From a virus, in the IMG/VR virus record IMGVR_UViG_3300028025_005824, positions 1 to 20,299 of that record: DNA of 20,299 nucleotides. One strand, given 5' to 3'. Positions 1 to 16,625 of the stretch are shown here, piece after piece; position 1 is the first letter of the stretch; each line of letters opens with the position of its first letter. The notes under the pieces were generated by a model. The model searched no databases. It was given only the letters and a program-made list of their open reading frames with translations, and was not told the DNA's origin. The position numbers and the translations under genes were made by a program.

Positions 1-1307
1 CCTGAAGTAAGTTTTGTAATTGTTGGTGGTGTAAAATTAGCAAAACTTGGTAATAAACTTGCTCCATTTGATTTTAAATATTGACCACTAGTTCCTGCAC
101 CAGCATTTTGCAAAGATCCATTAGCTGTTGTTCCTGCACATACTACACCATAAGCCGTTGTTAAAGTTGTTAAACCCGTTCCTCCTTGAGGAACAGTAAC
201 TGCAGTATTGTCAGTTAAAATTGTTGCTGATGCATTAGGTAAGGTGTAAGTTTTTTCTGTGCTAGTTGCTCCTGTAAATTTTGTAAATCCATTTCCCGTG
301 CCTCCAAAAGTTGAGGCAATAGTTTGTGATAATGCTGCAGATCCATCAAAGTTATTACCATAAATTGATCTTGCAGTTTGTAAAGTAGTTGCTGTTCCCG
401 CATTACCAGTTATATTTGTTTGGTCTCCAGTATTAGTTCCTGAAATTGTTGCATCACTTGAAACAGTTAAGTTACCAGATAAATCAATAGTTCTATCTAT
501 ATCATTAATTTTTAAGTTTAATGTGCGTGATGCACTAAGAGTTTCGTTTGGTTTTATAGTAAGTGCATTTGAAGTCGCACCTTTAACCACTAAACCACTT
601 TGATTTAATGAGATAGAAGTTATATCTGTGTTTGCTCCTGCTTCTGCTAAAGTATAGCTTTTATCTTGAAAAGTGTATATTCTATTTGCGGTATTGGCAT
701 GTGTAGAATATGTAGTATAATAATTACCATCATTTTTGTATTTAATATTTCCGTTGCTATCAGCAAATAAAGCGGAAAATGCAGATGGAGGAGAGGCGTC
801 AGCGGATTGGTGTTTTAAATCAATATATCCATTACCAGCTGTTCCGTTTACTTGGAATGCAGAAGCATCAACTCTGCCATCTACATTCAAGTTATTTGTT
901 GTTTTATGATATGTCAAACCAGCATCTCCACCTATACTTCCGCTATCATTAAATTGAACTTGTGTATTTGTTCCAGCGGCACTTGCGGTTATTGACAAAT
1001 TACCAGATCCTAAAATTGAAGTTGAGTTTATTGTTTTGATATTTGTTCCAGAAACTAAAGTATCTTGTTTTGCATTAAGGGCATTTTGAAGATCTGTTTG
1101 ATTTGATAATGTGCCACCAATAGAACCCCATGATGAAGAATTGCTATCAACATAAGATTTAGTTGCGGCTTGATTAGGCTCTGTTGGGCTACCACTTAAT
1201 ATTAACGCACCAGTCATTGTGTCGCCCGCTTTTTTTACTGCTCCTATGTCATCAGCTGTTGGCTCAACACCTGACAAACCTCTGTAAAGGCTTGATAATC
1301 CTTTCAT
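1..1307 (-). CDS. Phage tail fibre protein, C-terminus cut by left edge
   Basis: An open frame runs from ATG at 1307 to the left edge without a stop (435 full codons), so this is the N-terminal part of a longer protein. Visible modules are the phage-fibre motif GDTMTGALILSG (residues 28-39) followed by AATKSYVDS (47-55), the widespread fibre segment NAKQDTLVSGTNIKTIN (78-94) with GSGNLSI (100-106), and two GGTG turns (residues 335 and 375) flanking TYTLPNASATIL. Composition is rich in Gly, Ser, Thr and Asn, as expected of trimeric beta-structured fibres. Such proteins usually bind the host surface. It is the most downstream gene of the tail module, 81 bp after the W-FF protein gene, and has no Shine-Dalgarno sequence before its ATG, only an AT-rich leader. 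The distal, receptor-binding end is not in the window. The fibre family is clear; the receptor is unknown. Confidence 0.88.
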   Translation of the reverse strand, partial: MKGLSSLYRGLSGVEPTADDIGAVKKAGDTMTGALILSGSPTEPNQAATKSYVDSNSSSWGSIGGTLSNQTDLQNALNAKQDTLVSGTNIKTINSTSILGSGNLSITASAAGTNTQVQFNDSGSIGGDAGLTYHKTTNNLNVDGRVDASAFQVNGTAGNGYIDLKHQSADASPPSAFSALFADSNGNIKYKNDGNYYTTYSTHANTANRIYTFQDKSYTLAEAGANTDITSISLNQSGLVVKGATSNALTIKPNETLSASRTLNLKINDIDRTIDLSGNLTVSSDATISGTNTGDQTNITGNAGTATTLQTARSIYGNNFDGSAALSQTIASTFGGTGNGFTKFTGATSTEKTYTLPNASATILTDNTAVTVPQGGTGLTTLTTAYGVVCAGTTANGSLQNAGAGTSGQYLKSNGASLLPSFANFTPPTITKLTS

Positions 1308-1388: not shown

Positions 1389-1691
1389 TTATTTTAACTC
1401 TTGATACATATTTTCAAAAAATGTATGCCACTTACTGCTCAACTTTTCTTGGGAAGATGGAATACCAAAAGATGCACCAGTTGTTTTGTAGCTTTTTTCA
1501 AAAAAATTATACCAAATTCTATCAATATTTTTGTTTTCATCAATTATTGGCTGTAAGGCGTTAGGTAAACCAATATTTTGTGCATAATCATTTTTTATTA
1601 CTGTCTTAATTTGTTGAAAAAATGTATTCCATTCTGGCTTTATCATGCCGTTGTCTTCAACTGGTTGGTTATTGTTTGGTATATTAATCAT
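1389..1691 (-). CDS. Small protein with three W-x-x-F-F repeats (tail-associated, unknown)
   Basis: This 100 aa protein has no function I can name. It contains three copies of a short unit: a Pro-containing turn, a polar linker, then W-x-x-F-F. The aromatic cores are W21/F24-F25, W60/F63-F64 and W88/F91-F92. They are preceded by NIPNNNQP, GLPNALQP and GIPSSQEK respectively. I chose the ATG at 1691, which overlaps the end of the gp10-like gene by 8 nt. A TTG at 1703 would add four residues, but neither start has a clear ribosome site. It lies directly after the gp4-gp10 pair, where P22 encodes the gp26 tail needle, and before the fibre gene. A role as plug or fibre adaptor is possible. It is much shorter than gp26 and lacks its long coiled coil. 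Confidence 0.75.
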   Translation of the reverse strand: MINIPNNNQPVEDNGMIKPEWNTFFQQIKTVIKNDYAQNIGLPNALQPIIDENKNIDRIWYNFFEKSYKTTGASFGIPSSQEKLSSKWHTFFENMYQELK

Positions 1692-3102
1692 TTTCTGTTT
1701 CAATTTCTACAAAACAGCCAGCAATTACAAATTTAGTTGGCTCACTGTAATTTAATTTTGTTATAAAAGAACGACCTTGCCCTATTTGTGTCCAAAATAT
1801 TTCCGTCCAGTAAGAACCTTCCGTTCCTAGTGGTTGCCATAATTCATTGCTAAATGTTTTACCGCCATCAATAGAAAACTTTCCCATAATTTGTGGATTT
1901 TGACCTTGTCCAGTTGCTATTCCAACGCCCGTTTCCATACAAACTATAAATCTTGACATTGTCATTCTTGCAAAATTTTTAAACAAGGTTGTTCCTATAA
2001 CCTCTCTTTTAATTACGGCACCATTTTCAGTATGCAAATTATCTTTTAATTCATATATAACGCCCGTTTCAAAATCTCCTATTAAATTTTTATTGTTAAA
2101 ATTTATATAACAATTTGCTTTCCATCTACCACTTTTTCCTGCGTTGTTAATACTTTCTCTTTCATGCCATAATTCTGTTGATATATCGTATTCCCAAGTT
2201 TTATTTGCCGATGGAAAAGTAATACAATAAAATTTATGTCCTCCTAAAATATAAGTAAAAGCTATAGCATCATTTATTATTGCATATTCTCCAATTTCCT
2301 GCGATATTGGAAAAGTAGATATTTGTTTTAATTGGTATCCTATAGTTTGGTAAATTATTCCATCATTACCTAAGAAAAAATATGAATTATCAAGAGTTGC
2401 TATTGAATATTTAGAAGCACAACCTTTTTCAATATAAACACCTTCTTTTCTTTGAAATAAAGGATTTCCTGATCCAGTATTATAATAAACTTGAATTATA
2501 TCTTCTTTAAAAAACCAAAGTTCTAAATTATTTTGATAAACTCTAACAATTTTTGATGAATTAGCCTCAACAGTTGCGGCATTTAATGCATTCCAATTTT
2601 GTGTTGTATTAACATCTGACCATTGAAATTCATTTGAATCTATTAAGGCAGATACAGTAAAGCCGTCAAGTGTTGTTATTGAGCCAGAATTGTTAAAATC
2701 TCCATCTGTTATTTGCAATAATGATCCCGCAGTGCTTGTGCAATAATAAGTAATACCGCCTGGAAATTGTATTGTAACTTGAGCACCATTGTCAGTCATA
2801 ATGACTTGACCTATTTGAGTTGTTATTTCACCAATTAAAGTCCTTGCTTTACCTGAGTCAATTTTAAAAACTTTATTTCCTGCTACAATAAATAAATCTC
2901 CATTCATTACATGCATTCCATAAATTGGCAAAGAAACCGCTGTATCTAACCATACATCAAACCCTGCTGTTCCTAAAACCATATTAGGAAATGCACTAGT
3001 TTGAGGTGCTATTTCAGCATAACAATTAACTAATCGTTCAGCAGATATTAAGCCACTTTTAGCTTTATATGAATTTACTCCAAAATGTATTTGCTGGATC
3101 AT
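1684..3102 (-). CDS. P22 gp10-like packaged-DNA stabilisation / tail hub protein
   Basis: The 472 aa length matches P22 gp10 (about 470 residues). The N-terminus, with FGVNSYKAKSG, then the RLVNCYAE segment and FPNMVLGTAGF, is typical of the phage stabilisation protein family. In this family a short N-terminal strand with the (R/L)xxNxYxE motif leads into a beta-propeller-like body rich in repeated short strands such as GDLFIVAGNKVFKID. In P22 this protein sits below gp4 under the portal and helps close the DNA channel after packaging. Its ATG (3102-3100) shares one base with the TAA of the gp4-like gene, which suggests translational coupling. Its own end overlaps the W-FF gene. Family assignment is from motifs, length and context; the structural role is inferred from P22. 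Confidence 0.85.
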   Translation of the reverse strand: MIQQIHFGVNSYKAKSGLISAERLVNCYAEIAPQTSAFPNMVLGTAGFDVWLDTAVSLPIYGMHVMNGDLFIVAGNKVFKIDSGKARTLIGEITTQIGQVIMTDNGAQVTIQFPGGITYYCTSTAGSLLQITDGDFNNSGSITTLDGFTVSALIDSNEFQWSDVNTTQNWNALNAATVEANSSKIVRVYQNNLELWFFKEDIIQVYYNTGSGNPLFQRKEGVYIEKGCASKYSIATLDNSYFFLGNDGIIYQTIGYQLKQISTFPISQEIGEYAIINDAIAFTYILGGHKFYCITFPSANKTWEYDISTELWHERESINNAGKSGRWKANCYINFNNKNLIGDFETGVIYELKDNLHTENGAVIKREVIGTTLFKNFARMTMSRFIVCMETGVGIATGQGQNPQIMGKFSIDGGKTFSNELWQPLGTEGSYWTEIFWTQIGQGRSFITKLNYSEPTKFVIAGCFVEIETEND

Positions 3103-4040
3103 TATCTATATAAATTATAAGTTGGAACAAAATAAATTGAATCTTCTCTATCATATCCTTTTAAATTACGCAACATTTCATCGTATGTTCTTTTAATTTG
3201 CTCAGATTTTGTTTTGTCAATTGAAAAATCATAAGATAAACGAGAAGCTAAACCAAAAGCTAAAGTTTCAGCCCATTCAATAGGAAAATCAGGATTGTCA
3301 TTGCCTTCATTTAAATCAAAAAACATTTTCTGAAATGTAAATTTAATTGTATTAGAAGCGTCATTTGGAGCTTGATATAAATAAATTGTTCCCGAGCTTA
3401 ATTGTTTGTCGTAATAGAATTGAGTTGGTTGTCCAATTACTGTTTTTTGAGCAAGATTAAAATAATCACTTCTAGCAAGGTCATTTAAAGGAGTATCATA
3501 ATTTGAGGAATCCCTCCTCCTTGCTGATGTTATTGCTTCGGGGCGTGTAATTTTAGTTTGGTAAACATAAACAGTTGCTTCATTTGATACATTATTAGTT
3601 AAAGGAGCAGTCAAAGTAATTGTTGTTCCCGCTATATTAGAAATAGTTGTCCAATGCAAATTACCATCATTTTGCATTATTCCTATGTTGTATCCAATAA
3701 TAAATCCACTTGCACTAGTAACTACAATTAAGCTTGCTCCACTTGTTGCTGTTGCATTAGTTGTGGTTTGGGCAAAAGATTCTGTTGCATTGGCAGTTGT
3801 TCCATCTAAAATATAACTTTCTTGACCTACTTTTAAAAATAAAGTTCCCTCGGCGTATTTCCAAAGATAAACACCTTCACTTTTTAAGCCTTTGACATAT
3901 AAATTTAATGCTTCTGATGCTTCATTAATTTCTTCTGCAGTTAAATCTCTTCCCCGAGTTTTAATTCCTATAATTTTATAAGCACGATTAATTATATTAT
4001 TTCTTGTTTGTGTAAATGTATTTGTTCCTGAAACGCTCAT
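3102..4040 (-). CDS. P22 gp4-like head-tail adaptor / tail accessory factor
   Basis: The predicted 312 aa protein starts MSVSGTNTFTQTRNNII. Its N-terminal helical region (EEINEASEALNLYVKGLKSEG) is characteristic of phage connector proteins that bind under the portal. The C-terminal part, DFPIEWAETLAFGLASRL followed by a KRTYDEMLRNLKGYDRED segment and YFVP, is the other conserved block. Between them is a Thr/Ala-rich beta insertion that makes the protein much longer than P22 gp4 (about 165 residues). The ATG at 4040 lies one base after the stop of the upstream chaperone-like gene. A TTG at 4049 would add three residues but has no better ribosome site. It is paired with the gp10-like gene by a TAATG overlap, as expected for two consecutive tail-closure proteins. 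Confidence 0.8.
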   Translation of the reverse strand: MSVSGTNTFTQTRNNIINRAYKIIGIKTRGRDLTAEEINEASEALNLYVKGLKSEGVYLWKYAEGTLFLKVGQESYILDGTTANATESFAQTTTNATATSGASLIVVTSASGFIIGYNIGIMQNDGNLHWTTISNIAGTTITLTAPLTNNVSNEATVYVYQTKITRPEAITSARRRDSSNYDTPLNDLARSDYFNLAQKTVIGQPTQFYYDKQLSSGTIYLYQAPNDASNTIKFTFQKMFFDLNEGNDNPDFPIEWAETLAFGLASRLSYDFSIDKTKSEQIKRTYDEMLRNLKGYDREDSIYFVPTYNLYR

Positions 4041-4041
4041 G

Positions 4042-4449
4042 TTAATCAATAAAATTAATGTTTAAATTATTTAACTCAGTCAAACTATTTGCATTATTAA
4101 TAGCATCTTGCAATAATCTAGCATCTGCTCTATTTTTTAAAATATTTTGAGGTATAGGGTTTAAATTACTTAAATCTAATGATCTTATAATATACCAATC
4201 AGTATTTTTTAAATAATTTAAACATATATTAATTTTAATAATTTTTTGTTGTTCTAATAAAAAATTATTAGGAATTATATATTCTTGAAAAATCCCATCA
4301 ACAACGCACATTTGTTTACCCAAAGCAATTTGATGTTGTTCATCGGTAATTTCAATGTAAGGCTCAGGAATTGACGCATAATTAATTATGTCTGGATAAT
4401 ATCCTTTTACTAAAGTTGTTTTTGTATCGTAATTTACTTTTACTGTCAT
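4042..4449 (-). CDS. Probable tail-fibre assembly chaperone-like protein
   Basis: This 135 aa protein has two recognisable parts. The N-terminal half carries a YIEITDEQHQIAL segment followed by a DGIF turn. The C-terminal half is helical and contains NYLKNTDWYIIRSLDL, then IPQNILKNRADARLL. The TDWYxIR...IP...RA.AR pattern is typical of small phage tail-fibre assembly or tail-assembly-chaperone proteins, which are usually encoded next to the fibre they fold. It lies 19 nt downstream of the 411 aa fibre/spike gene, consistent with that role. There is no Shine-Dalgarno sequence; the leader is A/T only. The family match is by motif; the client protein is inferred from position. Confidence 0.62.
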   Translation of the reverse strand: MTVKVNYDTKTTLVKGYYPDIINYASIPEPYIEITDEQHQIALGKQMCVVDGIFQEYIIPNNFLLEQQKIIKINICLNYLKNTDWYIIRSLDLSNLNPIPQNILKNRADARLLQDAINNANSLTELNNLNINFID

Positions 4450-4468: not shown

Positions 4469-5704
4469 TTAATAACCAATTGCCATGTATCTGCAAATGC
4501 CACTATTTGGGACGCCCGTCCATTCTTCCGCATTAACAGTTAAACCAGAATTAGACAAGCTTGTTATACGCGCGTTTGTGGTTATACCAAAACTGTTTCC
4601 AAGAGTTACTTGAAGCACAAAATTTGGAAAAGCAATTGGAAATGTTGCAGAAACTGAAATGGGTGGTTCTCCTACTGGAGTAGCACCCCATTGTAAAATT
4701 AAATCATTTGGCAAATAAGTATAGCCTAAATAACCTTTGTTATTTGTAAAATTATTAATATTAAATGAACTTGAAATAACTATCCAGTAAGCCAAAGCAG
4801 AGTCATATCTCAAACACACAAAATCAGTTGTTAAATCTAATGTTATATTTCTGTTTGCAGCATTATTTTGAGAATTAATTTGAGGATTAAAAATGTTTCC
4901 AGTTGCATGTTTTAGAACTACATTTCTAGCATTGTTTGCGCTTCTCAAAAAAATAACTTGACCATCTTGACCACCATTAATTGTATCTAAATCATCGGAA
5001 GATGTTGATCCTTCGGTATCTATAGCATATGAACTTGAATTATTATTTAATGTAATAACTCCCGCTGATATTGTCAAAGCTGTAGAAGTTCCTGATAAAA
5101 GTGGTAATGAGTTAGGATTTAAAACAACTATATCAACGCCATCATAAGTGCAAAAATATCTTTGGTTAGCTTTTAAATCATTAGCTTTTAAATTAATTTT
5201 TGTTCCTTGTTGCGTATATTTCTTAAAATTTTGAGCAGTTAAACTATCTATTGTTAAAGTTGGATTATTTGCACAATCTATGTGAATTTGTATAACAAAT
5301 GTTTGTGAGTTATTATATGAAATAACTGTAGGATTTGCTGATAATGTGTAAGCTGTTGAAGTTCCTGTTGTTAATCCCCAATATGAAGTTGGTCGGACAT
5401 CAAAATCATTTAAAGATGTAATTTCAGCTGTAGCACCAACGGGATCACAAGTTTCTACTGTATTATCTAAAGAATCTTTAACAATTAATTTTAATTGCGA
5501 TAAATCAGAATACCATATTTCTGGAAAACGCCCATTAGCGTCAGACAAAACTGGATTAGTATTCGCTACGGTTAAATTAATGTCTTGATATGTTGTTACT
5601 GGCGTTGTTGTTCCAGTTAAATAAAAATAATATTTATATCCTACCCCAACAGCTCCTGCGTTGGTGAATATTCTTGCAATTGGTTCAATAAATCTTTGTG
5701 CCAT
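4469..5704 (-). CDS. Tail fibre/spike protein with gp53-like C-terminal domain
   Basis: A 411 aa receptor-binding type protein. Residues 1-90 (MAQRFIEPIARIFTNAGA, YYFYLTGTTTPVTTYQD, NPVLSDANGRFPEIW) form the widespread phage N-terminal domain that attaches fibres or spikes to the virion. Two middle beta modules begin with similar GTSTA(Y/L)T(L/I)SA strings. Residues 325-411 (GYTYLPNDLILQWG, then FPIAFPNFVLQV, ending YMAIGY) match the gp53-like putative tail-fibre C-terminal domain, in which LP.GLI.QWG and the final IGY are hallmarks. It sits between the ejection genes and the assembly chaperone-like gene, two bases after the stop of the 977 aa gene. The phage thus has two fibre-type proteins. 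The receptor is unknown. Confidence 0.85.
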   Translation of the reverse strand: MAQRFIEPIARIFTNAGAVGVGYKYYFYLTGTTTPVTTYQDINLTVANTNPVLSDANGRFPEIWYSDLSQLKLIVKDSLDNTVETCDPVGATAEITSLNDFDVRPTSYWGLTTGTSTAYTLSANPTVISYNNSQTFVIQIHIDCANNPTLTIDSLTAQNFKKYTQQGTKINLKANDLKANQRYFCTYDGVDIVVLNPNSLPLLSGTSTALTISAGVITLNNNSSSYAIDTEGSTSSDDLDTINGGQDGQVIFLRSANNARNVVLKHATGNIFNPQINSQNNAANRNITLDLTTDFVCLRYDSALAYWIVISSSFNINNFTNNKGYLGYTYLPNDLILQWGATPVGEPPISVSATFPIAFPNFVLQVTLGNSFGITTNARITSLSNSGLTVNAEEWTGVPNSGICRYMAIGY

Positions 5705-5706
5705 AA

Positions 5707-8640
5707 TTAGTCCCTATAATAACGATTTTTAATTTTTTGAGTTTCTTGTTCAGGATTAATATCTTGCATTAATATTTGATCTTGAGACATGTTTGGCTCT
5801 TCTACGTTGGCATCATCAATACCAAAATCTAAAGTATTTGCAGCCGCTTTTCCAGAAAATTTATCTAATTGTTTTAAATCCGTAACTGCTTGAGAAACAA
5901 AAGGTTTTTGCTCCTTAGACGCTTTATTTATAATATTTTCAAGATATTTAATTGAAGCATTTTTATTAGTAATAATTTTAGCAATTTCCTTAGCATTTTC
6001 AGGATTTAAACCTCTATAATTTTTTACTAAAAATTGTTCTCCTGCTTTTGTTGCGTTTGTTATTGCCGCATATTTACCAAAATTACTTGTAGCGTAAGAA
6101 ATTAAACCATTAAAAGCTCTTAAAATAAAATTTGTGCTTTCTTCTTGGGTGCTTGGTTTATCTAATCTTAAAGATTTAATAGCCTTATTAAACAAAGCTT
6201 CTTTGTTAATATTATCAATAAATTCTTCATAATCTTTTTCACCTAAAAAAGTTTTTAATTGATCTTTTTTAAATTTATTTTCAATTATTTTTTTTACTTG
6301 AATTTCTGTTGGTATATTAGAGCTATCAAATTTTATTAATTTTTCTACATCTTTAACAATTGTATCTTTTGCCCCAACTTTTACATCATCTAAAATATCT
6401 TGTCTTTTTAAACCAGATTTAGAAGTAAATTCATTTATTTTTTTTATTATTTCAGAAGGTTCGTATTTCGAAAATTCTTTTCCAAATTCTACGGCATCTT
6501 TTTTTATTGCCAAAGGTCTAAAAACATTATCGGCTTCTTTAAAAGTAGGAGACACTTCTCCAATAATATTATCAACCTTGCTTCTTAAAATTGACAATCT
6601 TCTAACTTCTTTATTTTGCCCATTTCTAATAGCTACGGAAATTTTATCATCAAACATTTCTCTTGTAGCGTGCAATGTTTCAATAGAATTATCAGAAGCA
6701 TCAGGATTTAAAAATTGTTTGGCTTTATTTTTTGTTTCTTGAAATACTTGATTATTTTCTAATTCATCAAGTTGTTTAGCCAATTCTATTGATTTTGGCG
6801 ACATTTGATTAAGATTAGTAATTTCTTTTCTAACATTAACTATTTTGCCACCTTCTTCAATTGTAGTTGTTTGTTTTCTTAAGGTGTTTTGAAATTCTTC
6901 AATTCCTTTTTTAGACAAATCTCGTTTATCATAAGATGATCCAGCTTTTATTCCAGCTATGCCACTTTTAACAGTTTGTGGAGTTATTTTTTTTAATTTA
7001 TTAATAGCGTCTATATTTATTCCTAAAGAATCTGTTTCTTTTAAAAATTCTTTAGCTTCATTGTATTTTGTGCTATCTTGAGAAAAAGTTGTTGCTCTAT
7101 TGCCTTTTGTTGTGTTTGTTAATTCTTCTTTAATAAAATCTAAAACTTTATTTACTCTAGGTTTTTCTTTAAAATAGCCAGCTTCCCAAAGTTTTTCTCC
7201 AATTTGATCAATTGAAGCTCCCTTAGTTCCTTCTTTTCTTAACAAACCTGGTAAAGTTTTATTTGTAATTCCCAAAGAAGCTAATTCTCCTTGAAAATCA
7301 TAAATACCTCCTAATTCTTTTATAAATTGCAACGGGCTTTTTGGAGCGTATTTTTTTAAATCTTGTGTGGCAGTTTTATATTTATCAGCAATATTAAATA
7401 ATTCTTCTTTGTTAGAGCCTTCAAATTTACCTTTTGCTTGTTGAAATAATTCTTTTTCTTCTTTAGAAACTAATGGTTTTTCAATATCCCTAGACTTACT
7501 TTGAAGATTATATTTATTAATAAAGTCAGTTTTAGTTTTTGTTGAAGAATCGGTTTTAAAACTTTTTACACCTTCGGAAACTGTCGTAGTTTGTGGAGAA
7601 GTAGTTGTTTTAACTTCTTTAAATTCAAATTTAGGCACTATTGTTCTATCAGCTTCCGCTTCTGCATATAAAGGAGAAGCTAAAGATTTTTGCGTGTCAC
7701 TAATTTGCTTGGTGTAATCGTCGGCATTGTCTATTTTAGAAATAATTTTTAAATCATTATTTATTCTAGTAAAAGCCTCTTTATTTCTTCCTTCTGTAAA
7801 ATCTTTAACTATTTCTCTTGCTTGCGGATATTTTGAAACAACACTTCTTGCAAAAGTTTTAAATTCGGGATTTTGAATATCAACTCCTGTCAAAGGTTTA
7901 TCGCTAGGCTTGTCTAGCAATTCTTTTAAAGCTAATTTTGCAGATTCTGGGTCTATTGCTTTTGCACCAACTTCTTCGGCGGTATCTTTTGTAAATAAAT
8001 TTTTAACATAAGAAGTAGCTTTTTTAGCTTTAAAAGCAACATTTTGAGCTCCCGAAATAACATAAGGAGCAACTTGTTGCACAGCTCCACCTACAACACC
8101 ACCAACAGCCGTTCCCGTTGCAACATCTTTTAAAGTTTGTGGAATATTAGTTAAATCTTCAGTTTCACCTAAGGCGCTTGCTCCACCTAAACTAGCACCT
8201 CCTTTTACAGCAGTTCCAAAACCTTGACCAGTTAAACCAAGAGCTTTAAGGCTTTTTCCAGCAATCCCGACATCGGAAAATATTTGACCAGCAAAAGATG
8301 TTAAAGGTCGGTCTTGTCTTGCCTTATCTAGTTTGGCTCTTTCGGTAGTTCTTGCTTCTCTATATAAATCACCAATATCTATGTTTTGCGTAGCTTGACC
8401 ACCAAATAATTTTGCAACACCAGCGGAAATTCCCGCTTTAATTTCATCGCCAAAACCTAAGGGGTTAGTTGCGGTTATAAAAGCAGCTTCTCCCATTGAC
8501 ATTTTGGGTTCGCTAGATTGGCTTTCATCATCTAATTGAAAGCCAGCAGGTAGTCCAAAATTTTCTTGGTAATTTCCTTGCTGACTTTCTTGTGGCGATT
8601 TGTCTAAAACAAATCCTTGTGGAATTACTGGTTTTGCCAT
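5707..8640 (-). CDS. Large DNA-ejection (internal virion) protein, gp16-like
   Basis: This is the largest gene in the window (977 aa). The N-terminus carries two copies of an (I/L)PxGFxLD motif (IPQGFVLD near residue 6, LPAGFQLD near residue 30), common in phage ejection proteins. A Gly/Ala-rich, hydrophobic region at about residues 110-200 (GASLGGASALGE, VATGTAVGGVVGGAV) could insert in a membrane. The rest is long, Lys/Glu-rich and mostly helical, including LYAEAEADRTIV and several coiled-coil-like stretches. Proteins of this kind are carried in the head and enter the cell with the DNA. It is the third of three consecutive ejection-type genes in the P22 order gp7-gp20-gp16. It overlaps the 397 aa gene by 16 nt, with its ribosome site inside that gene. 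No transglycosylase motif was recognised. Function rests on context and motif style. Confidence 0.7.
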   Translation of the reverse strand: MAKPVIPQGFVLDKSPQESQQGNYQENFGLPAGFQLDDESQSSEPKMSMGEAAFITATNPLGFGDEIKAGISAGVAKLFGGQATQNIDIGDLYREARTTERAKLDKARQDRPLTSFAGQIFSDVGIAGKSLKALGLTGQGFGTAVKGGASLGGASALGETEDLTNIPQTLKDVATGTAVGGVVGGAVQQVAPYVISGAQNVAFKAKKATSYVKNLFTKDTAEEVGAKAIDPESAKLALKELLDKPSDKPLTGVDIQNPEFKTFARSVVSKYPQAREIVKDFTEGRNKEAFTRINNDLKIISKIDNADDYTKQISDTQKSLASPLYAEAEADRTIVPKFEFKEVKTTTSPQTTTVSEGVKSFKTDSSTKTKTDFINKYNLQSKSRDIEKPLVSKEEKELFQQAKGKFEGSNKEELFNIADKYKTATQDLKKYAPKSPLQFIKELGGIYDFQGELASLGITNKTLPGLLRKEGTKGASIDQIGEKLWEAGYFKEKPRVNKVLDFIKEELTNTTKGNRATTFSQDSTKYNEAKEFLKETDSLGINIDAINKLKKITPQTVKSGIAGIKAGSSYDKRDLSKKGIEEFQNTLRKQTTTIEEGGKIVNVRKEITNLNQMSPKSIELAKQLDELENNQVFQETKNKAKQFLNPDASDNSIETLHATREMFDDKISVAIRNGQNKEVRRLSILRSKVDNIIGEVSPTFKEADNVFRPLAIKKDAVEFGKEFSKYEPSEIIKKINEFTSKSGLKRQDILDDVKVGAKDTIVKDVEKLIKFDSSNIPTEIQVKKIIENKFKKDQLKTFLGEKDYEEFIDNINKEALFNKAIKSLRLDKPSTQEESTNFILRAFNGLISYATSNFGKYAAITNATKAGEQFLVKNYRGLNPENAKEIAKIITNKNASIKYLENIINKASKEQKPFVSQAVTDLKQLDKFSGKAAANTLDFGIDDANVEEPNMSQDQILMQDINPEQETQKIKNRYYRD

Positions 8641-9818
8641 TGTCCTCCTTTAAAAACCGCTTTTTCTCCTGTTTGTGGGTTTGTAGCTGTTTGACCTTCT
8701 TTGATTATCTTTCCATTAATAATGGAATATTTGCCTTTAGAAACAATTGTTGGATTTAATGGTTTATAACCTAATTCAGAGGATGTTGAGTTTAGTGTTT
8801 GTATTTTAGTCTCAATAAACGATTTAAGAACTGACTCTTTTTCTTCTGGTGACATTCCAGTATCTCCAAGGGTAGATTTTAGTGACTCACCTTCTTCTTG
8901 TGTAAATTGTGAGCCAAAAGTATCTTTTAATAAAGGCAGAATCTCGTTATCCACAACAGCAATATATTCTCTTCTTGAAACTGCGCCTTGCGGGACTGTT
9001 AAACCTAATTCTCTCATGGCTGTATTTCTAACCATACCTAAGCCAGTGTAGGTTGCAGTCTCGCCCAGTTTACTTAGTTTATTTACCACATTAATTAACT
9101 GAGGCATTTTAGAAGAAGCTGATTGTAATAATGCTGTTTTTTCACCCCTAACTTTTCCAACTTCTTCTTGCTGTTTTTTAAACGTTCCAAGAGTTATTCC
9201 TTGATCTCTTGCTAATGCTCTTTCTTGTTCAACATCTAAAAATTCTCCAGTTTTTCTTAAATTATCTAAGTTGACTCCTTTGGTATCAGCGACTATTTTA
9301 CCTTGTTGTAAACCTTCAGTTTTAATTTGTGCTGCTTGGTATTGTTCTTTTAAATCTTGTTCTCTGCCTTTTAAGCGAGAAGAAAATCGTTTAAATTCAA
9401 GGATTGCCTCTGGTGATTTTTCAGAGGGTAAAGGCAATTCTTTTCCAGTTGCTTCAAAATATTCATTGTGCATTTGTTCCCATTTTTTTTGAGAAAAAGC
9501 ATATTGAGGCATTGAAGCATAAGAATCTAAAATTCTAGCTCCTTGAATATCAAAATAATCTTGTTGTTTTCTTATACCTTCAGCACGAGTTGGGTTATAA
9601 GCTGCAAGTTGGCGTAAAGCGTTAACATCACCCATTGAAGCAGTTTTAGATAAAATATTTTCTGCTTCGGCTTGAGCTAATTTATATTTATTAATATCCA
9701 TTTCTTGTTGGGCAGCAAGAAGCTGTAGTTGATTAGCTTTTGCTTGCTGACCAAATTGGTAGCCTTTTAAAATGCTACCTACATAATCTGGAGTTTGTTG
9801 CTGAATTAATTCTGTCAT
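8625..9818 (-). CDS. DNA-ejection protein, gp20-like
   Basis: A 397 aa protein with a Gln/Ala-rich helical N-terminus (QQAKANQLQLLAAQQEMD) and long charged helices through the middle. The conserved C-terminal block reads RREYIAVVDNEILPLLKDTFG, then SQFTQEEGESLKSTLGD, and then a short SPEEKESVLKSFIETK helix. This block (V.n.ILP.L...FG.QFT..EG..L...LGD) recurs in phage DNA-injection proteins. The last 25 residues (ATNPQTGEKAVFKGGQW) are a beta-turn motif also seen at the ends of such proteins. It is the middle gene of three ejection-type genes. Its ATG shares one base with the TAA of the 245 aa gene (TAATG). In P22, gp20 is packaged in the head and delivered to the cell with gp7 and gp16. The analogy is by order and motif. 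Confidence 0.7.
   Translation of the reverse strand: MTELIQQQTPDYVGSILKGYQFGQQAKANQLQLLAAQQEMDINKYKLAQAEAENILSKTASMGDVNALRQLAAYNPTRAEGIRKQQDYFDIQGARILDSYASMPQYAFSQKKWEQMHNEYFEATGKELPLPSEKSPEAILEFKRFSSRLKGREQDLKEQYQAAQIKTEGLQQGKIVADTKGVNLDNLRKTGEFLDVEQERALARDQGITLGTFKKQQEEVGKVRGEKTALLQSASSKMPQLINVVNKLSKLGETATYTGLGMVRNTAMRELGLTVPQGAVSRREYIAVVDNEILPLLKDTFGSQFTQEEGESLKSTLGDTGMSPEEKESVLKSFIETKIQTLNSTSSELGYKPLNPTIVSKGKYSIINGKIIKEGQTATNPQTGEKAVFKGGQWQNQ
8644..8649 (-). promoter_or_regulatory. Ribosome binding site of the 977 aa ejection gene, inside the upstream gene
   Basis: AGGAGG lies three bases before the ATG at 8640 and is formed by the Gly-Gly codons of the C-terminal FKGGQWQNQ of the preceding protein. 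The same bases therefore encode a conserved-looking tail motif and start the next gene. The spacing is short, but the match to the anti-Shine-Dalgarno is complete and it supports this start. Confidence 0.7.
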
Positions 9819-10555
9819 TAATATCCCATTAAAGATTGACCAGCATTCATAAATGCTCTTGAATTATATTGCCCGCCACCTGTTGAGGTAAAGCCAGAAG
9901 GTGATTTTGTTTGCGAACCCATGCCTTGCATTCCCATCCCTAATATACTGCCGCCAATTTGACTCATTCCACTGCCAATAATATTGCCCATTTGGGCATC
10001 ACGGTTAGCCATAGCCATACCTTGACCTAAAATACCTTGTTGTGATGCAGAAGCCATATTTGATCCTGCAAATAATTCTGCGTTACTCATTGCTGTAGCA
10101 GCATTTTGTCCTATTCCAGCAAGTCCTTGTAAGTATCCAACTTGATTGCCAAATTCTTGAGAAGCTGTTCCTTGAGCAAATTCTTCTAAAGATTTCATTG
10201 CCGCACCTGATTTTAAACCACCTCTAGAAGCTAATAAATTTTGGATTGAGTTTTGACCTTGTTGTAATCTAAATTGGTATCCTGGTGCATTTTCTAAACG
10301 AGACATTACAGAAGTTGGGTCGCCAGTAAGATATTGTTGAAGCAAATTTAAACCTTGTCTTCCTGCTTGTTCGTATGGTTGCTGATATGATAAAGCATTA
10401 TTTCTACCTTGACGCATTTGTGCAAGGTAAGCGTCCATTGCATTTGCTTGAGCTTTTGCTGCTTTTTTTGCTGATTTATTGGCAAAATATCCTTGGACAC
10501 CCATGCCTCCAGCCATTAATCCAGTTCCACCTATCGCTACCGCCGCGTAAGTCAT
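9818..10555 (-). CDS. DNA-ejection/transfer protein, gp7-like
   Basis: A 245 aa protein very rich in Gly, Ala, Gln, Ser and Met. The N-terminal segment (AAVAIGGTGLMAGGMGVQGY) is a hydrophobic Gly-rich helix that could span a membrane. A NKSAKKAAKAQANAMDAY helix follows, then QQPYEQAGRQGLNLLQQYLTG and APGYQFRLQQGQNSI, which are recurrent in phage DNA-transfer proteins, along with LASRGGLKSGAA. The C-terminal third is a low-complexity Gly/Met/Gln region. Length is close to P22 gp7 (about 230 residues). It starts with a strong GGAGG site (10560-10564), and its ATG overlaps the stop of the cupin-like gene by four bases (ATGA). It begins the three-gene ejection block. Assignment is from motifs and order. 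Confidence 0.72.
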   Translation of the reverse strand: MTYAAVAIGGTGLMAGGMGVQGYFANKSAKKAAKAQANAMDAYLAQMRQGRNNALSYQQPYEQAGRQGLNLLQQYLTGDPTSVMSRLENAPGYQFRLQQGQNSIQNLLASRGGLKSGAAMKSLEEFAQGTASQEFGNQVGYLQGLAGIGQNAATAMSNAELFAGSNMASASQQGILGQGMAMANRDAQMGNIIGSGMSQIGGSILGMGMQGMGSQTKSPSGFTSTGGGQYNSRAFMNAGQSLMGY

Positions 10556-11028
10556 TTACCCTCCAATAAATTTGGTTGAATCCATGATAAATCACTTTCG
10601 TGAACTAATTCATTTTGTAAATCTTCTACTATAGTATGTTCGCTATGATGAATAGTTGACCAAATTGTTTCTTCGTGGACATAAATTAGTCTTTTAGTTC
10701 CTGCTTTTGAAATCCAAGTTGCAGGAGCTTTAATACGATTAACTCCGTCTGGAGTCATAACCGATACATCGCCTTTAGATAAAATACTAACATGATCAAA
10801 ATTGTGAACTTTTCCCGTCAAGAGCATATCTTTAGGAAGAGTAATTTGTCTAGTATATGTTTTGTTGCAAATAAAATGCTCTAAAGGAAGTTCTTTTGCA
10901 GTTTGCTCAGAACCTTCAAAATAATTTTTTAAAAAATATTCTGCCAACTCTATTTTTTCCATATTAGAAAGAGTAGATAAGTCTTTATTGTATTTTTCAG
11001 CTATAACAGGCAGATTAAAACAATCCAT
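10552..11028 (-). CDS. Cupin-like phage protein of unknown function
   Basis: A 158 aa protein. The core, at about residues 58-128, reads YTRQITLPKDMLLTGKVH, then HVSILSKGDVSVMTPDGV, APATWISKAGTKRLIYVHEE and TIWSTIHHSE. This strand-turn pattern, with a G(D/K)-type turn and His residues at positions 75, 79, 118, 127 and 128, looks like a small double-stranded beta-helix (cupin/RmlC-like). Similar proteins are commonly found in late operons of tailed phages with no assigned function. The N-terminal 50 residues are helical. It is the first gene after the 82 bp gap holding a promoter-like sequence, and is translationally linked to the ejection block by an ATGA overlap. It might be a virion decoration or assembly protein; no enzyme activity can be claimed. 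Confidence 0.72.
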   Translation of the reverse strand: MDCFNLPVIAEKYNKDLSTLSNMEKIELAEYFLKNYFEGSEQTAKELPLEHFICNKTYTRQITLPKDMLLTGKVHNFDHVSILSKGDVSVMTPDGVNRIKAPATWISKAGTKRLIYVHEETIWSTIHHSEHTIVEDLQNELVHESDLSWIQPNLLEGK

Positions 11029-13207: not shown

Positions 13208-14113
13208 TTAAACGCCTTGTGAAGCAAAATAGCCACGAGGATCAGTAACGCCTACTGAATAGGAAGTCATAATTTTATATTTATGATCTCCTGATTCAAA
13301 AGCACCATCGTTGCTAAATTCACCTTGAACTGCAGTGATCATTTTAGCACCTTCTGGAGCATCTGTTTTAATAAAATAAGCGTCGTCGGAAGTCAAATGC
13401 GGATTAACTAAAATTCCACCTGAAAACAAACCCATATATTTTAAAGCATTAATATCGTTATTAGCTTGTCCAACACGAAGTTGAGATTCTAAAATACGAG
13501 TAGCTTCAAACATTAAAGCTGATGGAACTTGTAATAAAATTGGTTTAATTTTAGCTTTGATTCCTCTATCGTTATTAGTTTCTCTAATTTGAATACACAA
13601 TTCTTCCAAAGATTCCTCTGATAAATCAGAAGGAGTAGCTAAAGTGTTAGAAAAGTTGCCTGCACGACTTGGATGGTCAGTTGCAAAAAACTTTTTATTA
13701 TCACCAAAAGTGTAGCCTGAATCAAAGCCGTTATTGAATAAATCAGCAACATCGACTTCTTTAGTTTCACGAAGTGAAGATGCTAAATATTCGTTACCTT
13801 TAGATACAACATTAAGATATTTATTAAATTTACGAGCTTCCCAAGAAACTTGATAACCTAATGCACGAGTTCTTTGTTGGTATCTTGAAACATAGCCTTG
13901 CGACATTGAATCATAATCAACACCAGCACCTTCGTTTTTAGTTTTTAAAAGACCAAAAGGCGAAATTAAAACATCTTCATCAAATTGTTCATCTGTTGAC
14001 TCCATTTTGACAAGTTTTGATGCTAAAAGATCATCCTCGGTGTATGCTCCCCAATAAGTTTTTACCCCTGGTTTAAGAGCTTTTGGAATTGTTCCTGTTA
14101 CTATAATAGACAT
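13208..14113 (-). CDS. Major capsid protein (Mu gpT / HK97-fold type)
   Basis: A 301 aa protein. The KKFFATDHPSRAGNFSN segment (residues 140-156) followed by a PSDLSEESLEELCIQIRE helix (161-178), then IKPILLQVPSALMFEATRIL (189-208), is the signature order of gpT-like major head subunits: the F..DHP loop, the spine helix and the LxVPxxL strand. The C-terminal part ends with VTDPRGYFAS, a typical terminal strand. Length is near Mu gpT (about 305 aa) and well short of the P22 coat (about 430), so the shell protein is not P22-like although the portal is. Shell proteins of this fold assemble around a scaffold, and the scaffold and a GroES are both encoded just upstream. There is no Shine-Dalgarno sequence; the 24 bp leader is almost only A and T, although this is probably the most expressed gene. 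Confidence 0.87.
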   Translation of the reverse strand: MSIIVTGTIPKALKPGVKTYWGAYTEDDLLASKLVKMESTDEQFDEDVLISPFGLLKTKNEGAGVDYDSMSQGYVSRYQQRTRALGYQVSWEARKFNKYLNVVSKGNEYLASSLRETKEVDVADLFNNGFDSGYTFGDNKKFFATDHPSRAGNFSNTLATPSDLSEESLEELCIQIRETNNDRGIKAKIKPILLQVPSALMFEATRILESQLRVGQANNDINALKYMGLFSGGILVNPHLTSDDAYFIKTDAPEGAKMITAVQGEFSNDGAFESGDHKYKIMTSYSVGVTDPRGYFASQGV

Positions 14114-15285: not shown

Positions 15286-16290
15286 TTAATTATTAAAATA
15301 GTCATTAATGGCGTTTTGTTGCATATCTTTAATTTGAGCAGAAGTAAAATTGTGATTCTTTGCAAAATATTGACATGTTTGACGCACATCTAGTGGTAAA
15401 TCATTATAACTATATTGTTTTTTACCTACATTAATACCTCTTTTACCGCTTTCTACACTTGGAGCTTTAGCTCTATTTAATTTATCACTAAATGTTGATT
15501 GAATTTCTTCGCTAACCATTTCTAATCTTTCGCGAAGAGGAATGCGTTCTGATAAAGTAGCAAAATAAGTTTCTGCATATCCTCTCATCGGAGCATTTTC
15601 ATAAAACCAAGTGTTATCTGGAGCCCAATTATCAAATATTTTTTTATCTTCAGGCTGTATTTGTGATTTTGGCTCTTCTTGAATGTTTTCATCAATTTTA
15701 TTTTCGGTAAAAGAAATTTTATTTTTTTCTAATTCATTTCTTTGTTTTTGAATTGCTCTAACTTTAGCAACATCACCCTCTAAAATTGCATTTTCTTCTG
15801 CCTCATCTAAAGATTGAAACCGTTTTTGATTGTTTTCTTCATATGAAAATTTTTGGACATTTAAAATGACGTCCATTTGCTTGCGAAGTTCTGACATTTC
15901 TCTTTCAAGAGCGGTTTTTTCAGAAGCCAGTTTTCGATTTCTTTCATTTAATACGGGAGTTTCTTTTTCCTGAACTTCTAAAAATTCTTGTGCTGTTTTA
16001 TGAGGTTTTAGCGTTCCATCTTTATATCTTCCTTTAAAAAATTTGCCAGTTCTCCAGCCACGATCCCAAGCGTCTTTTTCTGTATCACTTAAAGTTTCAT
16101 AAAAAGCTCTTTCTTCACTTTTTGCTGATTTTTCAAATAGATTATTGTCTTTTTCAATTTCTTCTTCTTCCATTTCTTTTAAAATTGGATTAGAAGATAA
16201 GTTTTTATTTTCCTCAACTTTTGGCTCAAGTTCTTGTGAGTTTAAACCAATATCAATATCTATTTCTTCAGAACGATCAATTACTTGCAT
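15286..16290 (-). CDS. Scaffolding-type protein
   Basis: A 334 aa, highly charged, mostly helical protein. The N-terminus is very acidic (EMEEEEIEKD). A conserved-looking core, DAWDRGWRTGKFFKGRYKDG with a following AQEFLE, leads into a coiled coil at about residues 108-145 (ETPVLNERNRKLASEKTALE, then MSELRKQM). The last 60 residues are basic and aromatic, with QYSYNDLPLDVRQTCQYFA, and could bind the capsid protein as scaffold C-termini do. The G-W...F.G......A.EF segment followed by a coiled coil is typical of phage scaffolds placed between portal and capsid genes, as here. It starts at ATG 16290 with a GAGGA ribosome site (16294-16298), and its start overlaps the end of the GroES gene by 10 nt. 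No internal protease motif was seen. Confidence 0.72.
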   Translation of the reverse strand: MQVIDRSEEIDIDIGLNSQELEPKVEENKNLSSNPILKEMEEEEIEKDNNLFEKSAKSEERAFYETLSDTEKDAWDRGWRTGKFFKGRYKDGTLKPHKTAQEFLEVQEKETPVLNERNRKLASEKTALEREMSELRKQMDVILNVQKFSYEENNQKRFQSLDEAEENAILEGDVAKVRAIQKQRNELEKNKISFTENKIDENIQEEPKSQIQPEDKKIFDNWAPDNTWFYENAPMRGYAETYFATLSERIPLRERLEMVSEEIQSTFSDKLNRAKAPSVESGKRGINVGKKQYSYNDLPLDVRQTCQYFAKNHNFTSAQIKDMQQNAINDYFNN

Positions 16291-16625
16291 ATTTCCTCAT
16301 TAATTTGAATTGCTAAAATATTACGATCAAGAATAATTCTATATTCTTTGCCATCTTTGGTTTGATCTTTGCTTAATCTATAACCCTCATAAGATGGAAT
16401 TAAAATTTTATCACCAACTTTTGGCTTTTTTTTCCATTCCTTATCAGTTCCTTGGTCAAAAGCTTTTTCACCAATATCAATAATAGTTGCCAAAGTTTTA
16501 GCTCCCTGCATATCATCTCTTGATGAATCAGGTATAATTATTCCACCAGAAGTTTTTTCTTCAACTACATCAGGCAAAATTAAAATTCTATATTCAGGAA
16601 CACTGTAACCAGAAGTATTAATCAT
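16281..16625 (-). CDS. groES: GroES-like co-chaperonin (Cpn10), phage-encoded
   Basis: A 114 aa protein that aligns by eye with GroES along its length. YRILILPDVVEEKTSGGIII (12-31) is the first strand and the mobile loop (residues 22-36), where the GGI(I/V) core contacts GroEL. A VGDKILIPSYEGYRL segment follows, and EYRIILDRNILAIQI is the closing strand with the conserved ILAI. It is longer than a usual GroES (about 97 residues), partly through an insertion around residues 54-68 (KAFDQGTDKEWKKKP). It would pair with the host GroEL to fold phage proteins, as T4 gp31 does for its capsid protein; its place right before the scaffold supports that. It starts with a perfect AGGAGG site and overlaps both neighbours, so it is fully part of the operon. 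Confidence 0.9.
   Translation of the reverse strand: MINTSGYSVPEYRILILPDVVEEKTSGGIIIPDSSRDDMQGAKTLATIIDIGEKAFDQGTDKEWKKKPKVGDKILIPSYEGYRLSKDQTKDGKEYRIILDRNILAIQINEEICK

Follow-up and report, generated by a model that had tools for sequence, protein, structure and literature searches.

The window analyzed here is a viral DNA stretch of 20,299 nt (positions 1 to 20,299 of IMG/VR record IMGVR_UViG_3300028025_005824), and its features are collected in Table 1. Near its start lies the gene of a small protein, P0001, which has 100 amino acids when read from the ATG and 104 when read from an upstream TTG start. The first-pass annotation had reported the 100-residue frame correctly, without giving its strand. 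The ATG of P0001 sits within the final bases of a gp10-like gene, the two genes overlapping by 8 nt, which bears out the position after gp10 proposed at that stage. The gp10-like profile matches the PDB chains 9vyg_M (Pan3), 7eeq_1 (Pam1), 8tvr_S and 8eap_G (P22 gp10), and 7sg7_T (Sf6 gp8). The protein located at the adaptor position has no significant match in the PDB. On the other side of P0001 is a fibre gene, whose product has its own conserved N-terminus in most members of the P0001 family described below. At least two N-terminal types were observed among the fibres of this family, GLSxxYKGLSGVEPT... and MSGGFSIYNPTNPRGQSS..., with very different bodies.

Table 1. Positions of genes and repeat units in the window
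Feature	Position	Strand	Remarks
Fibre gene, truncated at the window end	3..1307	(-)	begins ~80 nt after the P0001 gene
CDS of the three-unit protein P0001	1389..1691	(-)	ORF, 100 aa; conserved in 33 IMG/VR loci
P0001 unit 3, shortened	1398..1463	(-)	residues 77-98; core W88-H-T-F-F; predicted AF2 helix 86-99
P0001 unit 2	1479..1568	(-)	residues 42-71; core W60-Y-N-F-F; predicted AF2 helix 58-71
P0001 unit 1	1593..1682	(-)	residues 4-33; core W21-N-T-F-F; predicted AF2 helix 18-35
gp10-like hub protein, proposed docking partner	1684..3102	(-)	phrog_578, head closure Hc3, E 8e-98
Protein at gp4 (adaptor) position	3102..4049	(-)	phrog_12985; gp4 identity by position only
Likely ejection protein	8625..9818	(-)	matches endolysin-annotated phrog_26675 at 214-348, E 6.9e-24
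158-aa protein	10552..11028	(-)	related to phrogs 12032 and 24280, annotated 'short tail fiber' / 'tail fiber adhesin'
Major-head-like protein	13208..14113	(-)	resembles Mu gpT (PF10124, E 4.3e-07), not P22-type coat
GroES-like co-chaperonin	16281..16625	(-)	Pfam Cpn10, E 4.3e-12; phrog_3188; between portal and head genes

The window as a whole is a mosaic, in which a Mu gpT-like head protein is combined with a P22-like hub and portal. It also encodes a GroES-like co-chaperonin, a likely ejection protein and a 158-aa protein, the family of which also follows the gene after gp10 (hereafter gp10+1) in several Vibrio-type phages.

P0001 is composed of three units, each with a W-x-x-F-F core and each opened by an IP or LP motif (residues 4, 42 and 77). 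Units 1 and 2 also share a Gln-Pro (residues 9-10 and 47-48) and an Ile four residues before the Trp. All of these elements, including the cores at W21, W60 and W88, are present as the first-pass annotation had described them. Among 200,000 composition-preserving shuffles of P0001, none contained three W..FF stretches and five contained two. Unit 3 is without the N-terminal half, and its match to the unit profile introduced below is confined to the helix part (residues 85-97). AF2 gave a poor model of P0001 (pLDDT 56, pTM 0.43), with three helices of 14-18 residues each placed at low confidence; a Foldseek search with this model retrieved nothing (best E 6.6).

Relatives of P0001 were identified in 33 loci of a viral-contig scan (IMG/VR) and are 59-100% identical over residues 1-100; together with locus L074 they form the window family of 34 sequences, 27 of which are distinct. 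Conservation of the repeats, on which the initial reading of the protein hinged, extends to the entire family. All 34 homologues retain exactly three W..FF cores with identical spacings of 39, 28 and 13 residues, the last being the distance from the third Trp to the chain end, where no C-terminal tip or knob domain follows. In the 18-row family alignment none of the nine core W/F positions varies. Six near-genome-size contigs of the family (42-47 kb) were searched with a unit profile of 19 rows, four of them window-family units, at E values up to 10; each contig gave exactly three matches, all in the P0001 homologue, and no further unit copy was found elsewhere in any of the six. P0001 alone had no relative among 50,697 phage records and only chance-level matches in PHROGs, the window-family profile had no match in the PDB, and none of the 127 stretches retrieved by a pattern search of genome_contigs was confirmed as a P0001 relative.

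The gp10-like protein of the window matches 43 phage records, and the gp10 regions of 14 phage loci, with Pan3 later added as a fifteenth, were read. In several of the first 14 loci the gene after gp10 opens with the unit pattern, e.g. PPRVAITDPRTGLISREWYLFF. Related short-tailed phages of the P22-like type nearly always have a single-copy unit, xPPRVPLIDPRTGLISREWYRFFLNLF, at the head of their gp10+1 gene. Thus W-x-x-F-F units after gp10-like genes elsewhere, which the first-pass annotation had suggested looking for, do occur at gp10+1 in many related phages. We refer to their carriers as gp10+1 hub-unit proteins, a grouping defined in this analysis, with PPRVPLIDPRTGLISREWYRFF as the hallmark. 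P0001 has a unit homologous to this hallmark and is encoded right after the gp10-like gene, but it has three units in place of the single N-terminal unit that characterizes the grouping.

A gp10 profile scan of IMG/VR yielded 80 loci, from which L075 and L083 were dropped for a gp10 match cut at the contig end; the remaining 78 loci have a complete gp10 match and include four of the window family. An ORF lies right after gp10 in 73 of the 74 non-family loci, and 63 of these 73 ORFs contain the strict unit pattern. A unit profile was then seeded from 52 distinct gp10+1 units of other phages, with no window-family members, and compared with the 4,682 ORFs of 92 gp10 loci (78 IMG/VR loci and 14 phage loci). 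It gave 78 matches (E<0.01) in 78 of the 92 loci, all of them at gp10+1; since gp10+1 units seeded the profile, this recovery is partly by construction, and a less circular measure is given by the phage loci, with 7 of 14 matched, and by the window family, with 4 of 4. In a second gp10 scan the unit was matched in 66 of 72 newly numbered loci, several of which lie on contigs already counted in the first scan. Pooling of the two IMG/VR scans resulted in 136 unit-bearing ORFs, corresponding to 115 distinct proteins, among which more than one unit occurs only in the window family. No second unit was detected in any protein outside this family in both gp10 scans and the phage loci. In phage DSL-LC05 (L061, 4904-5553) the gp10+1 ORF carries the unit, and its annotated start at 4990 seems too late. 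The unit profile had chance matches only in the PDB (best E 0.68), the unit is absent from Pfam and PHROGs as far as tested, and no published account of it was found in a literature search with few terms among openly available papers.

The triple units of the window and the single units of other phages are linked by several comparisons. The 52-unit profile scores P0001 at three places with 9.7, 11.8 and 6.5 bits (E for one sequence, 4.4e-12 over the whole protein), whereas no stretch in 2,000 shuffles exceeded 4.8 bits, and it matches all three units in each of 18 aligned family members. Profile-profile comparison (hhalign) of the single-copy units with window units 1, 2 and 3 gave probabilities of 93, 96 and 88%, respectively; unit 1 matched unit 2 at 96%, and the standard units matched the divergent units of the VvAW1 type at 97%. 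The value for unit 2 against unit 3 (93.6%) was discarded because the compared segments overlapped by residues. The nearest gp10 outside the window family (L076, 45% identity) is followed by a 160-aa protein with a very similar first unit, which shows the same pattern LPNN..Q..SGIV..PWYRFFQQ; unlike P0001, this protein has a single unit and then a different C-terminal part.

These comparisons bear on the alternative that the repeats of P0001 are merely convergent aromatic peptides that share no ancestry with the gp10+1 units. A chance likeness of this kind is offered by the best Pfam match of P0001, PF16078 (2-oxogl_dehyd_N), a cellular enzyme family: the similarity is limited to a short x-x-W-x-x-F-F stretch, at the motif level, and its 21.1 bits fall below the curated gathering cut-off of 27. 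The motif is short, but convergence would have to account for three matches from an independent profile at the same genome position, for profile-profile values of 88-96% and for the one-unit neighbor of the L076 gp10. It is already largely contradicted, and we regard it as very improbable.

The gene immediately 3' of gp10 in P22 and Sf6 encodes the needle gp26, and the P0001 gene has the same position. As described in passages of PMC3741392, one gp26 trimer per virion is located on six gp10 and twelve gp4 subunits, its N-terminus forms the plug of the DNA exit channel in P22, and DNA leaks without gp26. The same passages describe the shaft of gp26-type needles as a long trimeric coiled coil of 11-16 heptads and the Sf6 needle knob as TNF-like. 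P0001 shares the gene position, and we propose for it docking on the hub; it differs from gp26 in the absence of a shaft and a knob and in having three units per chain instead of one. Comparison of the units with six gp26-type N-termini (P22, Sf6 and four others) gave hhalign probabilities of 0.1-0.3%, and 0.1% for the pooled unit set. At only 100 aa P0001 has no long trimeric coiled-coil shaft, and the tip or knob is missing in 34 of 34 family members. P0001 is therefore no gp26 family member, whether judged by its sequence, by a shaft or by a tip. A segment of P22 gp26, LPRNVFSKSYLLYV, taken by eye for an in-register unit, was dropped as the profile comparison gave no support.

A second point of reference is the needle of cyanophage Pan3 (PDB 9vyg, 9vzi), a 197-aa gp10+1 protein annotated as needle, whose gene lies right after the gp10-like gene, as that of P0001 does. 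Its N-terminus has the divergent unit VPIVDxxGxP. The PDB entries were used as chain lists, not coordinates: 9vyg lists residues 1-69 of the Pan3 needle in three chains beside six gp10-like chains, and 8eap lists residues 3-64 of P22 gp26 in three chains. The Pan3 needle presents one unit in each of three deposited chains, whereas P0001 holds three units in one chain. The divergent units match the Pan3-type needle N-termini at 62% and the standard units match them at 7%; the 62% value is flawed, since L232, one of the four rows in the Pan3-type set, matched by chance in tblastn (E 0.075), and three likely true rows, L234-L236 (E about 0.3), were missing from it. Judged from these profiles, the unit appears to be linked to the Pan3 hub complex (9vyg) moderately and indirectly, only through the divergent unit type.

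The regions downstream of the unit in its relatives are informative in this respect. Twelve gp10+1 proteins align as a unit, a coil of variable length and a conserved C-terminal domain. The AF2 model of a representative single-unit protein (L130; mean pLDDT 80) has a unit helix at 25-33, a coil helix at 54-75 and, spanning 88-232, a beta knob, and this knob, which fills the structure-search lists of the protein, matches TNF/C1q folds in both Foldseek (4-1BBL, C1q, APRIL) and VIA (Z up to 17.8). The coil and knob resemble the gp26-type needle of P22 and Sf6; the Sf6 knob is not among the best 50 matches of L130 listed by Foldseek or VIA, so the TNF-like comparison relies on the fold class and the literature. 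A TNF/C1q-like fold like that of the single-unit knobs was also observed in a portal-tail chain of cyanophage A4 (PDB 9k09_A, Z 15.6). In other gp10+1 proteins the unit is fused to a 590-aa spike with a pectate-lyase-like domain (L069) or, in its divergent form, precedes a collar-type fibre (VvAW1). Finally, unit-only gp10+1 proteins of 48-58 aa are present in Pseudanabaena phage Pam5 (48 aa), L085 (49 aa) and L123 (58 aa); like P0001 they lack a shaft and a knob, and they differ from it in having one unit each rather than three. A single unit followed by a coiled coil with a TNF/C1q-like knob, by a fibre or by a spike is a tail-needle architecture.

Since the unit is the N-terminal piece of the needle, fibre and spike proteins of relatives, P0001 looks like a shaftless needle base. 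The first-pass annotation had held that P0001 is no gp26 needle; its shortness and the lack of a coiled coil agree with this, as does the absence of support for homology to gp26, and what that view had missed is that the unit heads the coils and knobs of relatives. The same architectures weigh on the possibility that P0001 is an assembly factor or an ejected minor protein, which would bind gp10 transiently and be absent from the finished tail tip. The small size of the protein, its low-confidence fold and the absence of an appended domain would suit such a role; however, the homologous unit heads virion parts, and the gp10+1 protein of Pan3 is present in a solved tail structure, making this role improbable in our judgment.

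We consider it fairly likely that P0001 is a shaftless tail-needle equivalent, acting as a plug that docks on the gp10-like hub. It would dock on the hub and probably plugs it, and it probably functions like a needle base. In each unit an extended, Pro-rich segment would be followed by a turn and an N-capped amphipathic helix, the W/F/F face of which may pack on the hub, in putative contact with gp10. The docking site of P0001 would be the distal opening of the gp10 hexamer; in analogy to gp26, the protein may close the DNA exit after packaging. In relatives one unit bears a coiled coil with a knob, a fibre or a spike, whereas the window family has three units and nothing behind them; the neighboring fibre may hang on P0001. 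From the first-pass interpretation, the conserved repeats, the needle position and the plausibility of a symmetric hub as partner are retained; its use of the missing coiled coil as a sign of a non-needle is not.

The fibre itself could also be the main partner, with P0001 joining it to the tail and the units gripping the fibre trimer, which would be compatible with docking on the hub. The fibre gene is directly next in most family loci, where fibre bodies vary and P0001 is constant, and the fusions of the unit to fibres or spikes in other phages, such as the pectate-lyase-like spike, point in the same direction. However, the unit follows the gp10 gene and not any one fibre type, and at least two different fibre N-termini occur in the family beside near-identical small proteins. 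Only a 40-residue fibre repeat is common to the next-gene fibre and one gp10+1 protein, and L043 has a 530-aa ORF between the small gene and the fibre. A role chiefly as a fibre adaptor therefore seems rather unlikely.

Within the reading of P0001 as a docking plug, we tentatively suggest a covalent pseudo-trimer, in which one chain with three docking units would replace three needle chains on the six-fold gp10 hub; we hold this to be possible, if somewhat doubtful. If it is true, three units in one chain would make a trimerising coil unnecessary, so that one copy per virion (or two, for six sites) would close the tail. The suggestion fits because every homologue seen has exactly three units with rigid spacings, as expected for a symmetry-matched part, although the shortened unit 3 speaks against a strict equivalence of the three units to three needle chains. 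The window family thereby raises the question of how a six-fold hub is closed without a trimeric needle, and whether one chain can stand for three.

The unit offers a sequence-based entry to the question of how short-tailed phages attach needles, fibres or spikes to the gp10 hub, probably by one short unit that heads the gp10+1 gene in most of the relatives examined, and many unnamed gp10+1 genes would become annotatable as hub-docking proteins. As the window family indicates, this unit can occur without an appended domain and in three copies.
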